A DNA stretch of 60,011 nt from contig WGMA01000025.1 of the NCBI GenBank assembly GCA_016125285.1, positions 1 through 60,011 on the forward strand. The letters run 5' to 3'. The notes under the pieces were generated by a model that was given only the letters and a program-made list of their open reading frames with translations, searched no databases and had not been told where the DNA came from. Positions 29,803 through 58,492 of this stretch are shown piece by piece (the stretch's first letter is position 1; the number at the start of each line of letters is the position of its first letter). The stretch comes from Phycisphaera sp. Lineage in GTDB: Bacteria; Planctomycetota; Phycisphaerae; Phycisphaerales; Zrk34. The translations under genes were made by a program, and so were the position numbers.

Positions 29803-30513
29803 ATGACACCCAACACCCCCGACAAGCCGGCCGTCGTGCTGCTCTCCGGCGGACTCGACAGCGCCACCACGCTCGCCATCGCCCGAGCCGACGGCTGCGC
29901 GCCCTACGCGCTGAGCTTCGACTACGGCCAACGCCACCGCTTCGAGCTCGAAGCCGCCCGCGCCGTCGCCGCGCACCTCGGCGTCGTCGAGCACCGCACC
30001 GCCGCTATCGACCTCCGCGCGTTCGGCGGCTCGGCGCTCACCGCCGACATCGACGTGCCCAAGGATCGCGACGAGTCGCAGATGTCCGCCGGCATCCCCG
30101 TCACCTACGTCCCGGCGCGCAACACGATCTTCCTCGCCTACGCGCTGGCCTGGGCGGAGGTGCTCGGCTCGGTCGATATCTACATCGGCGTCAACGCCGT
30201 GGACTACTCCGGTTATCCCGACTGCCGCCCCGCCTTCATCGAGGCATTCGAGGCGATGGCGAACCTCGCAACCAGGGCCGGCGTCGAGGGCGCGGCACGC
30301 CTCACCGTCCACACGCCCCTCATCGACCTGCCGAAGATCGACATCATCCGCCGCGGCCTCGACCTCGGCGTCGACTACGGCCTGACCCACTCGTGCTACG
30401 ACCCGGCCGACGACGGCGCACCGTGCACCCGCTGCGACTCGTGCCGCCTCCGCATCGCCGCCTTCGACAAGCTTGGCACGACCGACCCCCTGCTGATCAA
30501 ACATCATGTTTGA
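29803..30513 (+). CDS. queC: 7-cyano-7-deazaguanine synthase
   Basis: QueC converts 7-carboxy-7-deazaguanine to preQ0 with ATP and ammonia, on the path to queuosine. The 236-residue protein has the PP-loop SGGLDS (residues 15-20), [29 protein letters not shown] and a C-terminal zinc site built from HSCYD and CTRCDSCR. Length and all motifs are standard. The gene is followed at once by a two-armed heptamer repeat and then by queE, so the two form a partial queuosine operon; queD, queF and folE are not in the window. Confidence 0.95.
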
Positions 30514-30595
30514 GTTTCAAGTCTCAGGTATCAGGTCCCAAGTGACCTGCCGCCGGAGCCTTGAAACATGAGACCTGAAACTTGAAACCCGAAAC
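30514..30595. repeat. Two-armed heptamer element, GTTTCAA word (family D)
   Basis: Five 7-bp units of the type GTnTCAr (30514-30548; the fifth is degenerate) start at the base after the queC stop. After a 12-nt GC-rich centre (30549-30560) come five units of the complementary type yTGAnAC (30561-30595). The queE TTG start (30582) is the first codon of the fourth right-hand unit. The arms can pair imperfectly over 35 nt. Confidence 0.8.
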
Positions 30596-31274
30596 GCTTT
30601 CCATCAACGAGATCTTCTTCAGCGTCCAGGGCGAGTCGACGCACGCCGGGCTGCCCTGCGTGTTCGTCCGCCTGATGGGCTGCCACCTGCGCTGCGGGTA
30701 CTGCGACACGGAGTACGCGTTCTACGAGGGCGCCAAGCGCACGATCGACGACATCATCGCCGAGGTGCGCCGCGTCGCGCCGGCGTGCCGACTCGTCGAG
30801 GTCACCGGCGGCGAGCCGCTGCTGCAACCGAACGTGCACGCGCTCATGTCGCGCCTTGCCGACGACGGCTACGGCGTGCTGATCGAGACGAGCGGCGCGT
30901 GCGACATCGCGGCCTGCGACCCGCGCGTCATCCGCATCATGGACCTCAAGTCGCCCGGATCCGGCGAGGTCGAACGGAACGTCTGGTCGAACGTCGCATA
31001 CCTCACGCCGCGCGACGAGGTGAAGTTCGTGCTCACGAGCCGCGCCGACTACGAGTGGATGCGCGGCGTGCTGACCGAGCACGACCTGGCGTCGAAGGTG
31101 AACGCGGTGCTGGTCAGCGCGGCGCACGCACAGCCGGCGGGCGCGGAGCTGCCCGGCTGCACCGGGCTGTCGATCCGCGACCTGGCCGAGTGGGTCCTCG
31201 CCGACGCGCTGCCCGTGCGCGTGCAGACGCAGCTGCACAAGCTGATCTGGGACCCGCAGGCGCGCGGCGTGTGA
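30582..31274 (+). CDS. queE: 7-carboxy-7-deazaguanine synthase, radical SAM
   Basis: QueE rearranges 6-carboxytetrahydropterin to 7-carboxy-7-deazaguanine. The 230-residue protein carries the radical-SAM cluster motif C34-HLR-C38-GY-C41, followed by DTEYAF, the SAM-binding VTGGEP and the conserved N-terminal EIFFSVQGE. The only usable start is a TTG at 30582 inside the heptamer repeat: no ATG or GTG occurs in frame between it and the conserved EIFFSVQGE. There is no clear ribosome-binding site, so translation may depend on coupling to queC or on the repeat structure. Confidence 0.92.
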   Translation: MKPETLSINEIFFSVQGESTHAGLPCVFVRLMGCHLRCGYCDTEYAFYEGAKRTIDDIIAEVRRVAPACRLVEVTGGEPLLQPNVHALMSRLADDGYGVLIETSGACDIAACDPRVIRIMDLKSPGSGEVERNVWSNVAYLTPRDEVKFVLTSRADYEWMRGVLTEHDLASKVNAVLVSAAHAQPAGAELPGCTGLSIRDLAEWVLADALPVRVQTQLHKLIWDPQARGV

Positions 31275-37959: not shown

Positions 37960-37981
37960 AGACCACACGTCACAGGTAAGG

Positions 37982-38076
37982 AATGACCAATGACCAAGCA
38001 CCAATGACCAATGCCGGCGCAATCGCGCCCCGTCACGTCATGGTCATTGGACATTGGGATTTGGTCATTGGGCATT
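37982..38076. repeat. Two-armed heptamer element, AATGACC word (family C)
   Basis: Five 7-bp units of the AATGACC type (37982-38016; the fifth, AATGCCG, is degenerate), a 25-nt GC-rich centre, then five units of the GGTCATT type (38042-38076). It fills the spacer between the HIT stop (38081) and the cobA-hemD start (37959), both on the minus strand. Confidence 0.85.
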
Positions 38077-38080
38077 TTTT

Positions 38081-50010: not shown

Positions 50011-50050
50011 GACGTCACTGCCCCTTCAACCCGTACGTCGGAGCGGGAAT

Positions 50051-50164
50051 TGAAAAATGCAACATGCAAAGTGCAAAGTGCAAAATGGCCCCGTCGAATA
50101 CCAACGGTCCACCGCTTACGGGTCCCCCACTTTGCATTTTGCACTTTGCATTTTTCAATTTGCA
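50051..50164. repeat. Two-armed heptamer element, TGCAAAG word (family B, copy 1)
   Basis: Five 7-bp units of the TGCAAAr type (50051-50085), a 44-nt GC-richer centre (50086-50129), then five units of the complementary yTTTGCA type (50130-50164). It separates the flippase start (50010) from the GT2 gene, whose stop codon (50155-50157) and last residues are inside the right arm. Confidence 0.88.
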
Positions 50165-51159
50165 TTTTCCACCTCCCCACCGCCTCCCGTCTCCAGTCCC
50201 CTGTCACCTGTCCCCTGCCCGAACCCGAGCTTCTCGCCGACGAGGTACAGCGGTCGCCGCTTGACCTCGCGGTAGATGCGGCCGACGTACTCGCCGATGA
50301 TGCCCAGCGAGATCAGCTGCACGCCGCCGAGGAAGAAGATCGCGATGACCTCGGTGGTCCAGCCGGGCTCGTGCACCTCGGTGAAGATGCGCATGTACAG
50401 CGCGTAGAGGATACCGAGCATCGCGAGGAAGCAGGCGATGAAGCCGGTCATCGTCGCGAGCTTCAGCGGCACGAGGCTGAACGACAGCATGCCGTCGAGC
50501 GCGAAGCGGAGCATCTTGCGCAGCGGGTACTTGCTGGTCCCGGCGAAGCGCGCTTCGCGGTGGTACTTCACGGCGGTCTGCCTGAAGCCGACCCAGCTGA
50601 CCATGCCGCGGATGAAGCGGTCGCGCTCGGGCATGCGTTTCAGCGCCTCGACGACCTTGCGGTCCATCAGGCGGAAGTCGCCAGTGTCGAGCGGGATCGC
50701 GGTGTCGGACATGCGGTTCATCAGGCGGTAGAACGCCTTGGCGGTCAGCAGCTTGAAGGCGGACTCGCCCTCGCGGTCGGTGCGCTGGCCGTAGGCGACG
50801 TGGTAGCCTTCGCGCCACTTGGCGACCATCTCGAGGATCACGGCGGGCGGGTCCTGCAGGTCGGCGTCGATGAGCACGACGGCGTCGCCGGTCGCGAAGT
50901 CGACGCCCGCGGTCACCGCGACCTGGTGCCCGAAGTTGCGGGCAAAGCTGACGACCTTGACGTTGGGGTCTCCCGCCTGGATCTCGCGGAGCAGGTCCAG
51001 CGTCGTGTCGCGCGAGCCGTCGTTGACGTAGATCAGTTCGTAGTCGAGGTCGTCGAGCCCGTCACGCAGCGTCTGGGTCAGCCGCTCGTGCGTCGTGCGG
51101 ATGACCTCCTGCTCGTTGTAACACGGGACGATCACGCTCAGGAGTTGGCGGTCGGACAT
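50155..51159 (-). CDS. GT2 glycosyltransferase with C-terminal membrane helices, repeat-derived tail
   Basis: The 334-residue enzyme has a GT-A domain (LSVIVPCYNEQEVI, VNDGSRDTT, LIDADLQDPP metal site, RTDREGESAFK, DTGDFRLMDRKV) and two C-terminal membrane helices, as in bactoprenyl glucosyltransferases (GtrB-like). ATG 51159 is followed directly by the catalytic domain. The last 20 residues (GTGDRGLETGGGGEVENAN) are not part of the family: they are coded by a one-armed heptamer array and the right arm of a two-armed element, which supply the stop codon. The gene is bracketed by two elements of the same repeat family and is divergent from crcB. Confidence 0.9.
   Translation of the reverse strand: MSDRQLLSVIVPCYNEQEVIRTTHERLTQTLRDGLDDLDYELIYVNDGSRDTTLDLLREIQAGDPNVKVVSFARNFGHQVAVTAGVDFATGDAVVLIDADLQDPPAVILEMVAKWREGYHVAYGQRTDREGESAFKLLTAKAFYRLMNRMSDTAIPLDTGDFRLMDRKVVEALKRMPERDRFIRGMVSWVGFRQTAVKYHREARFAGTSKYPLRKMLRFALDGMLSFSLVPLKLATMTGFIACFLAMLGILYALYMRIFTEVHEPGWTTEVIAIFFLGGVQLISLGIIGEYVGRIYREVKRRPLYLVGEKLGFGQGTGDRGLETGGGGEVENAN
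50184..50218 (+). repeat. One-armed heptamer array, CCCCTGT word
   Basis: Five 7-bp units of the type CnCCnGT (50184-50218) lie within the 3' end of the GT2 gene and abut the right arm of the family B element. On the coding strand they give the GDRGLETG stretch of the protein tail. No complementary arm is found nearby. Confidence 0.7.
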
Positions 51160-51198
51160 GTTGCGGATTGTAGCAGGGGTTCGGGGTTGGGGAGAAAA

Positions 51199-51310
51199 TG
51201 CAAAATGCAAAATGAAAAGTGCAAAATGCAAAATGCCGGCCCGTCTCGGCCGTGTTGCCGCGTTCGGCGCGTCCGTTTTGCATTTTGCAATTTGCATTTT
51301 TCAATTTGCA
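51199..51310. repeat. Two-armed heptamer element, TGCAAAA word (family B, copy 2)
   Basis: Five 7-bp units of the TGCAAAA type (51199-51233), a 42-nt GC-rich centre (51234-51275) unrelated to that of copy 1, then five units of the TTTTGCA/ATTTGCA type (51276-51310). It occupies the divergent control region between the GT2 start (51159) and the crcB start (51334). Confidence 0.88.
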
Positions 51311-51333
51311 TTTCCCCCTGCTACACTCGCGGA

Positions 51334-53714: not shown

Positions 53715-53744
53715 AGGCGGAGTGACGATTGCGTCTTCTGATTG

Positions 53745-53855
53745 ATTTTCCATTTTCCATTTGCCGTTTTCCATTTGCCATTGGCGCAGCGCCCCGCATG
53801 TTAGAGGGCGCTTCCGAAATGGAAAATGACAATTGGAAAATGGAAAATGGAAAAT
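53745..53855. repeat. Two-armed heptamer element, ATTTTCC word (family A, copy 1)
   Basis: Five 7-bp units of the ATTTTCC type (53745-53779), a 41-nt centre with its own 7-bp dyad (AGCGCCC with GGGCGCT), then five units of the GGAAAAT type (53821-53855; the second is degenerate). It lies between the DUF190 stop and the DinB start. Confidence 0.9.
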
Positions 53856-53941
53856 TACTCTCGCGAGTCTCACGAAACCGGCGCCGCGCACGCGTCATCT
53901 AATCCGCGACCACACCCACACCGATACAGGAGAGGCACACG

Positions 53942-54667: not shown

Positions 54668-55666
54668 ATGAGCGGACGCGTTGGCATCGCGATGTTGGGC
54701 GCGGCGGTGTGGCTGTTGACCGGCTGCACGACGCTGCCGATGAACCCGGACTACGCCGGGCCGAAGGCGATGCCGCAGGAACTGGCGGATCAGTTCGCGT
54801 ACACGCTGCCGAAGGTGTGGACGACGGGGAACGAGACGGTCGAGCGCGGCTGGGGGTATCGCGTCGAGCGTGTGCGGTTCAGGTCGGCGGTGACGCTGAT
54901 CAAGGATGACGGCGCCGACGGGCACGACGTGGTGCTGGACTACTACGAGCCGACGGGCTGGTGGCGTGGCGATGCGCCGCGTCCGGCGATCATGGTGCTG
55001 CCGATATTGGGCGGCGCGTACGAGGCGGCGAAGTATTTCGGCGGGCACTTCGCGCGGGCGGGTTTCGCGGCGGTGGTGGTGCACAAGAACGACCGCAACA
55101 AGGACCCGGACTCGATCGCGGACCTCAACGCGACGTTCCGGCAGATGGTGCTGGACCACCGGCAGGCGCTGGACTGGATGGCGACGGAGCCGGGCATCGA
55201 CATCGACCGCGTGGGCGTGTTCGGCATCAGCGCGGGGGCGATCAAGGGGTCGCTGGTGTACGCGGTGGACCCGCGGCTGCGCGCGGCGCTGCTGGCGCTG
55301 CCCGGCGGCGACATCCCGTACATCCTGGCGTACTCGAACGATCCGGGCGTGCGGCGGCGGCGTGTCAGCACGCTGAGCAGGGAGGACATCACCGCCGAGC
55401 AGCTGTACGCGGAGCTGAAGGCCGGGTTCCGTTACGACCCGCTCGACCTGGCGCCGTACGCGGACGCGCGGCACGTGCTGATGATCCTCGGCGAGCGGGA
55501 CAGGGTGGTGTTCTACAAGAAGGGGCTGGAGCTGCGGGAGGCGATGGGCGGGCCGAAGACGGAGGTGCTGCCGACGGGGCATTACGACTCGATCGTGTTC
55601 ACGCCGTTCATCCAGGACCAGGCGGTGGATTTTTTCCGTGCGGAGTTGGCGGCGCGGGAGCCGTGA
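54668..55666 (+). CDS. Alpha/beta-hydrolase lipoprotein
   Basis: The 332-residue protein has a lipoprotein signal (lipobox LLTGC, Cys20) and an alpha/beta-hydrolase domain: IMVLPILGGAYEAAKYFGGH, GVFGISAGAIKG with nucleophile Ser in the G-x-S-x-G elbow, ILGERDRVV with the likely acid, and LPTGHYDS with the catalytic His. The predicted location is the inner face of the outer membrane or the outer face of the inner membrane. Substrate unknown; acyl ester or peptide are options. A family A element begins three bases after its stop. Confidence 0.85.
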   Translation: MSGRVGIAMLGAAVWLLTGCTTLPMNPDYAGPKAMPQELADQFAYTLPKVWTTGNETVERGWGYRVERVRFRSAVTLIKDDGADGHDVVLDYYEPTGWWRGDAPRPAIMVLPILGGAYEAAKYFGGHFARAGFAAVVVHKNDRNKDPDSIADLNATFRQMVLDHRQALDWMATEPGIDIDRVGVFGISAGAIKGSLVYAVDPRLRAALLALPGGDIPYILAYSNDPGVRRRRVSTLSREDITAEQLYAELKAGFRYDPLDLAPYADARHVLMILGERDRVVFYKKGLELREAMGGPKTEVLPTGHYDSIVFTPFIQDQAVDFFRAELAAREP

Positions 55667-55668
55667 TG

Positions 55669-55776
55669 ATTTTCCATTTTCCAGTTGCCATTTTCCATTT
55701 TCCATTGGGCGGGAGAGCGGCCGCTGTGCGCGGTCTGAAATGGAAAATGACGAATGGAAAACGGAAAATGGAAAAT
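55669..55776. repeat. Two-armed heptamer element, ATTTTCC word (family A, copy 2)
   Basis: Five 7-bp units of the ATTTTCC type (55669-55703), a 38-nt centre holding the palindrome AGCGGCCGCT (55716-55725), then five units of the GGAAAAT type (55742-55776), of which the second is degenerate as in copy 1. It starts directly after the hydrolase stop codon. The centre differs from that of copy 1. Confidence 0.9.
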
Positions 55777-55908
55777 GATCCGTCCACGCCTGGATGTGTC
55801 CAAAGTCGTATGCGTGCGCACTATATCTCATGCCGGGCCGACCGCGGTCCGGGTATGATGATGTAGGCACATCATCTCCTGCTGCGAACAGAAATCTGTG
55901 AGGCTGCA

Positions 55909-58399: not shown

Positions 58400-58427
58400 G
58401 ATTTAGGGTTTAGGATTTCGAGTTTTG
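58400..58427 (+). repeat. One-armed heptamer array, GATTTAG word
   Basis: Four 7-bp units of the type GrTTTmG (58400-58427) follow the family E element directly. No complementary arm is present; a small GGCGG/CCGCC hairpin follows. It is shorter than the 35-nt arms elsewhere. Confidence 0.55.
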
Positions 58428-58492
58428 AAGGCGGTTTCACACCGCCGCGCCGCATATACTCCCCCAAGCGAGGGCACGCTTAGGGCATCACC

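Follow-up and report, generated by a model that had tools for sequence, protein, structure and literature searches.

In the planctomycete Phycisphaera sp., queC and queE are separated by an inverted pair of heptamer arrays, and the apparent start codon of queE lies within one of the arms. Did this element create the translation start of queE, does it control it, or is it a repeat that inserted there and was tolerated? We analyzed the element within a window of 60,011 nucleotides (the whole stretch of DNA under study), the repeats like it elsewhere in the genome, and the same gene junction in relatives.

The dyad between queC and queE

The features of the junction are listed in Table 1. For QueE, the best model is TIGR04349 (275.3 bits, E = 3e-82), which is below that model's own cut-off of 300; four further QueE models match as well. 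Each arm of the element has four degenerate heptamers, which follow TYTCANG on the left and its complement on the right, with departures, and 24 of the 29 outer positions pair end to end. Neither 2000 Markov resamples built on the 400 bp around it nor 2000 resamples with the element's own composition gave a comparable period-7 dyad (0 in each set), so the heptamer element described in a first-pass annotation of this DNA is real. That annotation had placed it at 30511–30600: the dyad is there, but its true span is 30514–30588, and the rest is the queC stop codon and 12 nt of queE. As had been noted, the left arm begins at 30514, one base past the TGA of queC (30511–30513), and the right arm extends into queE (the arm ends at 30588 and queE starts at 30582). 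Owing to the dyad, the two genes are now 68 nt apart.

The queE frame is closed by a TGA two codons upstream of the TTG, which is the first ATG, GTG, or TTG afterwards, and the frame contains no further ATG, GTG, or TTG between this codon and the motif EIFFSVQGE. The claim that the TTG in the fourth right-hand heptamer is the sole start for QueE before that motif therefore holds among these three codons. We found no preQ1 riboswitch or other Rfam family in the whole window, where the sole match at the gathering score was to a tRNA.

Table 1. Features at the queC–queE junction and other dyads in the window
Feature	Position	Strand	Basis
queC (7-cyano-7-deazaguanine synthase)	29803..30513	+	ORF; NCBIfam TIGR00364, 189.9 bits (cut-off 150.3); stop TGA at 30511–30513
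queE (7-carboxy-7-deazaguanine synthase, radical SAM)	30582..31274	+	ORF; TIGR04349 and four further QueE models
Heptamer dyad element, 75 bp	30514..30588		Sequence, end-to-end pairing, period-7 dyad detector
Left arm, G + TTTCAAG TCTCAGG TATCAGG TCCCAAG	30514..30542	+	Sequence
17-nt spacer	30543..30559		By eye; differs from spacers of other copies seen
Right arm, CTTGAAA CATGAGA CCTGAAA CTTGAAA + C	30560..30588	-	Sequence
In-frame TGA within right arm, closing queE frame upstream	30576..30578	+	Sequence
TTG, QueE start, in fourth right-hand heptamer	30582..30584	+	Sequence, among ATG/GTG/TTG
TTGA, left copy, overlapping queC stop	30510..30513	+	Sequence; right copy at 30582–30585
Dyad, AATGACC class, between genes	37980..38078		Detector
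Dyad, AAAATGC class	50044..50177		Detector
Dyad, AAAATGC class	51190..51316		Detector
Dyad, ATTTTCC class	53736..53861		Detector
Dyad, ATTTTCC class, overlaps end of preceding called gene	55663..55783		Detector

A family of dyads and its placement in the genome

In a sample of 59 stretches (1,205,649 bp) from this Phycisphaerae-like genome, we found 58 period-7 dyads. The control periods 4, 5, 6, 8, 9, 10, 11, and 12 gave 0, 2, 4, 6, 7, 1, 3, and 15 dyads in the same sequence. All 15 period-12 dyads and 6/7 period-9 dyads have their midpoints in genes; 5/6 period-8 dyads are intergenic. The window and 18 other stretches (420,011 bp) contain 19 period-7 dyads, 13 of which lie outside the window in 360,000 bp, and 0–4 dyads at each of the periods 4–6 and 8–12; Markov resampling gave 0. 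Extrapolating from the density in the sampled stretches suggests between ~220 copies (from the 13 in 360,000 bp) and 290 copies in the 6.09-Mb genome. So, although an element is present at queE as first described, it is a member of a genome-wide family and not a queE-specific device.

At a linkage of 17 of 21, the 58 dyads form six clusters and one singleton. Example heptamers are TTTCAAG/TCTCAGG, AATGACC, AAAATGC, ATTTTCC/GATTTTT, GTCAG/GACAGG, and ATGCTGG. We compared by eye eight loci listed among 32 matches (one of them is the copy in the window itself, and two represent a single site read from both strands) and found that the arms are alike and the spacers unrelated. In 42 of 57 cases, the two arms of an element resemble each other more than they resemble other arms of the cluster, though the detector itself favors such likeness. 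Arm polarity appears by eye to be fixed within classes; at a threshold of 17, arm pairs have the same polarity in 174 cases and the opposite polarity in 27, a count that mixes classes.

The window also contains a GTCCCCT-like heptamer array at 50176–50223, beside the dyad at 50044–50177, and a GATTTAG-like array at 58400–58429; the detector found an inverted partner for neither. Three dyads of the ATGCTGG class (L217:3049–3180, L207:16675–16847, and L228:3683–3828) have very unequal arms, with up to ~13 near-perfect units in one of them by eye, which suggests that one arm may have grown recently by slippage.

To relate the dyads to genes, we used a home-made codon-pair gene caller, whose starts are rough. 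The midpoints of 54/58 dyads are outside called genes, and no dyad (0/58) is wholly inside a gene. The distance to the gene on the stop side has a median of 1.5 nt, with 44/62 flanks within -15 to 10 nt; on the start side, the median is 18 and 14/54 flanks are within this range. The flanking genes are co-directional for 42 of the 58 elements, convergent for 10, and divergent for 6, while gene pairs with gaps of at least 60 nt are co-directional in 374 cases, convergent in 69, and divergent in 117.

The co-directional elements are concentrated at tight junctions. The residual gap is at most 20 nt for 20 of these 42 elements and at most 40 nt for 29 of them, versus 1.3% and 5.6% expected from uniform insertion over the 632 element-free co-directional gaps. 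Strongly negative residual gaps are due at least partly to rough gene starts or loose dyad ends, and the detector's ends overshoot (30506–30597 for 30514–30588), which makes residual gaps look smaller; with the 10 negative values dropped, 10/32 are at most 20 nt. The excess at tight junctions reflects either targeting or strong retention there. Where more than 10 nt is left over, 20 of 26 elements are nearer the stop.

At ten start-side flanks, the called start is no more than 3 nt from the dyad or slightly inside it. Among these, queE alone has TTG and the other nine have ATG. Five further start-side flanks with larger overlaps are probably wrong starts.

Gene junctions and repeat units in relatives

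We searched 60 relatives for QueE and obtained a match in 59. Among the 29 loci listed besides the genome's own, queC is directly upstream of queE in seven, and all seven are from the same family as this genome. By strict or relaxed detection, none of these seven queC–queE gaps contains a period-7 or period-8 dyad. The gap from queC to the nearest in-frame queE ATG is -4 nt in four of them, which have an ATGA overlap, and 17, 27, and 28 nt in the other three. All seven have an in-frame ATG at or near the equivalent place (some have other in-frame starts further upstream), and their QueE proteins begin with M-x(1-3)-[TS]-L-x-[IV]-N-E, which is the type of N-terminus obtained here from the TTG (M-KPE-TLSINE). 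It had been proposed that the element created the translation start of queE. That all seven relatives share this N-terminus from an in-frame ATG, after a gap without the repeat, refutes creation of the start position.

Since the repeat is absent from all seven relatives and the junctions there are tight, we infer that the element is a lineage-specific insertion at a queC–queE junction that overlapped or nearly touched before. If the 75 bp of the dyad are excised, or the 72 bp that separate the two TTGA copies, what remains is TTTGA and then the QueE codons in frame, so that the TTG overlaps the queC stop as ATGA does in relatives. This backs insertion into an overlapping junction, as support but not proof: with three start codons and several positions, an in-frame start is sizeably likely by chance. 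The flanks in the relatives have diverged too far for a base-exact empty site. The nearest QueE among named loci (a list that possibly lacks the window's own genome) is at 74%, from a Phycisphaeraceae metagenome-assembled genome.

The element may also have changed the start codon (ATG in relatives, TTG here) or its context. Alternatively, the TTG might be ancestral: the element would have inserted into a TTGA stop/start overlap and QueE would have kept its old codon, whose likeness to the arm would be due to chance or to site choice. This is suggested by the presence of TTGA on both sides of the element (30510–30513 and 30582–30585), by the deletion of the 72 bp between these copies, which leaves the present N-terminus TTG-KPETLSINE in frame, and by the 4-nt overlap in four of the seven relatives. 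However, the heptamer CTTGAAA matches the consensus of its class and is complementary to TTTCAAG of the left arm, which makes it look like a piece of the element, and the codon at this place is ATG in all seven relatives. Also, the ends of the 58 dyads show no excess of direct repeats (mean 3.22 observed versus 3.31 permuted), which indicates that there is no duplication rule; on the same grounds, we rejected a MITE with target-site duplication. At queE itself, the flanking TTGA copies are compatible with such a duplication but not significant. The 75-bp and 72-bp excisions both fit, so the TTG may have arrived with the element or been there before it; we regard an ancestral TTG as a serious possibility, though not a probable one.

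In this genome, elements also lie between genes that look, from their sequences, like ybaB and recR, argB and argF, argF and its neighbor, and trkA and trkH. The ybaB–recR element is a GATTTTT-class dyad, and genome G004 has a 4-nt gene overlap there and no element. Between argB and argF, G004 carries a heptamer dyad whose arms are fairly similar to those here and genome G001 has none; between trkA and trkH, there is an octamer dyad in G001 and a heptamer dyad here. Two further sites in G001 have dyads: a CGATCTG-class dyad is directly past the stop codon at its ybaB–recR junction (L144:11601–11669, L262), and a GATTGACC-like octamer dyad is upstream of trpG (L253:2148–2334), at a site that is occupied here by a GTCAGTA-class heptamer dyad (L041:18903–19009).

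Most elements appear to be lineage-specific. Among 62 gene pairs that are adjacent in the samples of both this genome and G001, six have an element here only, three in G001 only, one in both, and 52 in neither. Of the three sites with an element in G001 only, two correspond to gaps of -4 and 9 nt in this genome. At the six here-only pairs, the gaps in G001 are 35, 47, 121, 121, 148, and 236 nt, so not all of the counterparts are tight; one of these has an octamer dyad (L293). We do not claim that junctions recur between genera (Fisher p = 0.39 with strict detection; p = 0.04 with relaxed detection, with 3 in both, 5 and 4 in one, and 50 in neither).

The repeat classes also differ between genomes. 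A pattern of three consecutive TYTCANG units has 30 matches here and 2 (in one array) in just one of 150 other genomes of the order, while the reversed pattern, as a control, has 0 matches here and 57 in five other genomes. These 57 matches are divided among G117 (42), G037 (8), G087 (5), G105 (1), and G150 (1); those in G117, which belongs to another family, probably represent its own heptamer class. The ATTTNCC pattern has 4 matches here and 4 in G004, G057, and G124 (control: 4 in two genomes), and so is rarer and less exclusive to this genome than TYTCANG.

In 400 kb from ten relatives, we found 4 dyads at each of the periods 7, 8, and 9. In 835,405 bp of G001, there are 20 dyads with period 7, 13 with period 8, and 1–6 with each of the periods 5, 6, and 9–12. 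A scan of 80 named loci from other bacteria (1.2 Mb) gave 9, 7, and 6 dyads at the periods 7, 8, and 9, which suggests that the detector is near noise outside this group; by eye, several of the nine period-7 dyads are plain heptamer arrays (L103, L111, L139).

Because octamer dyads have the same outline, the unit length is not fixed at seven. The six period-8 dyads in this genome, one of which overlaps a heptamer element, include L196:17146–17263, L201:5232–5419, L201:8811–8993, L211:17895–18063, and L211:18603–18788, with units such as ATTTGGTG. In the 835 kb of G001, 12/13 period-8 dyads are intergenic; octamer dyads are found in L287, L292, L293, L312, L320, and others, with units such as GCCACCGA and GGTCAATC. 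In 80 kb of G006, there are nonamer dyads with CACAGAGGG-like units (L146:11575–11649, L148:6892–6979, and L148:8574–8680).

A broader reading, which we put forward tentatively and consider doubtful, is that all of these are one class of k-mer dyads (with units mainly of 7 nt here, also of 8 here, and of 8 and 9 in relatives) whose unit changes between genera while one placement rule is kept: the dyads abut stop codons, chiefly where genes of an operon overlap or adjoin. The hairpin would set the stop and start codons side by side and so preserve translational coupling despite the insertion, and sites would be selected through the stop codon or through termination and not through their sequence. 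If the rule of stop-flush placement at tight junctions is general, then the role and spread of heptameric repeats become a question of translation termination.

Translation of queE and similarity to published repeats

The explanation that we favor, with a probability of nearly 60% (0.58), is that a dispersed intergenic repeat inserted between queC and queE and was tolerated, with QueE still coupled to QueC. In the lineage of this genome, a repeat with two inverted arms, about four degenerate heptamers in each, and a variable spacer would have inserted between the two genes, and the sequence shows that one arm now carries the initiator TTG of QueE where relatives have ATG. The arms are predicted to pair in the mRNA, which would hide the TTG but also place the codon that ends queC beside the one that begins queE, at the hairpin's base. 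A ribosome that ends queC would open the base and free the TTG. QueE would thus stay coupled to QueC, at a lower rate or with a stricter dependence than in relatives.

Folding predictions bear on several of these steps. The RNA of 30505–30606 has a predicted fold of -33.1 kcal/mol (z = -3.2; 2/200 shuffles are equally good). With a context of -150 to +60, the T, T, and G of the start codon are predicted to be unpaired with probabilities of 0.17, 0.15, and 0.06, in agreement with the first-pass suggestion of a hairpin that buries the TTG. Given this pairing, QueE probably depends on ribosomes finishing queC. If the left arm is deleted in silico, the TTG is still mostly paired (unpaired probabilities of 0.23, 0.22, and 0.10), so this arm does not decide the predicted pairing. 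There is no Shine-Dalgarno-like tetramer at -17 to -5 of the TTG; such a tetramer is found at this place for 335/995 called genes, versus 81/995 at a control place within genes. The lack of this tetramer and the pairing of the TTG make coupling by unwinding a fair guess. PMC7538156 presents two models of translational coupling, unwinding and re-initiation, and argues that re-initiation plays no major part in coupling in E. coli; on that argument, only the unwinding form may hold. As a proxy for the terminating ribosome, we left out everything as far as 12 nt beyond the end of queC. Most of the pairing of the TTG persists (unpaired probabilities of 0.10, 0.19, and 0.33), and this partial release gives weak support at best to the idea that coupling would free the TTG.

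By our favored explanation, a little-studied repeat can separate neighboring tRNA-modification genes without destroying the second gene, and a start codon can come to lie inside a repeat arm. Start-codon calls beside such arms need care.

The element might act on queC instead, as a REP-like intercistronic hairpin on mRNA ends that impedes 3' exonucleases, or ribosomes, at the stop codon of queC and so protects or lowers queC, with queE as a bystander. The small stop-side distances across the 62 flanks would fit, as would the report in PMC4692102 that, in Xanthomonas, transcripts start or end at G4-forming repeats more frequently than at control repeats. But proximity to stops could also be explained by selection against insertions on the start side (promoter, ribosome site), and there is no T-run directly past the right arm, which is followed by CCGAAACGCTTT. 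The latter also rules out an intrinsic terminator in its usual form. We consider an effect on mRNA ends unlikely.

Still less likely is that the hairpin was selected as a translational switch that sets the ratio of QueC to QueE. The predicted pairing of the TTG, and the stop and start codons that flank the base of the hairpin, are what a switch would show, but the element is absent from the junction in all seven relatives, and the same kind of element is found at unrelated junctions (such as those presumed to be ybaB–recR, argB–argF, and trkA–trkH). We also saw no sign of selection on the sense RNA in the 42 co-directional elements: the sense RNA folds better than the antisense in 21/42, and compatible GU pairs (42) are not in excess over AC (60). 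For the queE element itself, the sense fold is worse (-33.1 versus -46.3). Because the sense strand has no folding advantage, there is no indication that an mRNA switch was selected; the element at queC–queE is most likely tolerated, not selected as a switch for queE.

A REPIN moved by a Y1 (RAYT) transposase is the least probable of these alternatives, and we think it very unlikely. REPINs have the same outline, with two inverted repeats that fold into a single hairpin around a spacer of lower conservation (PMC3116915), and one of the four Y1_Tnp matches in this genome has a dyad ~1 kb away. But in 104,909 bp around 33 Y1_Tnp loci (4 here and 29 among the matches listed elsewhere), there is just one period-7 dyad, the one ~1 kb from its gene in this genome. 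This is a weak test, as the density of dyads predicts ~0.5 in the genome's own four loci (10.5 kb) and other genomes may have few dyads. Also, neither strand of 30514–30588 has a GTAG or CGTC tag. More generally, the dyads are like REP, BIME, and REPIN sequences in being extragenic inverted pairs with a variable spacer and many copies (PMC3116915 and PMC3733652), and REP GTAG ends often provide the stop codon of flanking genes (PMC3733652). Unlike REPs and REPINs, which by these accounts have GTAG/CGTC tags and RAYT transposases, the queE element has arms built of heptamers and no tag, and a link to RAYTs was not found in our weak test.

In a search of the open-licence PMC literature, we found no publication on such dyads in planctomycetes, but repeats of this type have already been described in other bacteria. 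The closest published kind that we found is the GGGAATC heptameric repeats of Xanthomonas (Rehm et al. 2015, PMC4692102). These are degenerate heptamers, commonly with four units, that are 89–93% intergenic; inverted pairs number 70 in one genome and 75 in another. They are biased to be very near or overlapping the upstream stop codon, are generally not associated with mobile elements, and had no function found. The dyads here similarly have about four degenerate heptamers per arm, form inverted pairs, and are intergenic and near the upstream stop. The Xanthomonas repeats are of one G-rich class that can form G-quadruplexes and also occur as single arrays. In contrast, the planctomycete dyads were found as inverted pairs and fall into at least six class clusters, and the queE element has no G4-like tracts. 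It contains no GGGANTN units, no GGG on the + strand, and just one CCC, so it is of the same kind as the Xanthomonas repeats but not of the same family.

Two other published cases are similar in part. The TAACTGA repeats of Beggiatoaceae are heptamers that are mostly intergenic, lineage-specific, and at gene edges, like the dyads here (PMC4679880). Unlike the dyads, they are direct repeats (with one inverted case) of one heptamer and related variants, and they are on the start side: the largest single category ends 1 nt before the start codon. The P6b stem of the Nostoc trnL intron (PMC4476775) lies at a single locus within a group I intron and is part of a structural RNA, unlike the dyads here. 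It is built of degenerate heptamers (TDNGATT or NNTGAGT) whose classes have been replaced repeatedly at one site, and this swapping resembles the different classes at the ybaB–recR junction in two genera here.
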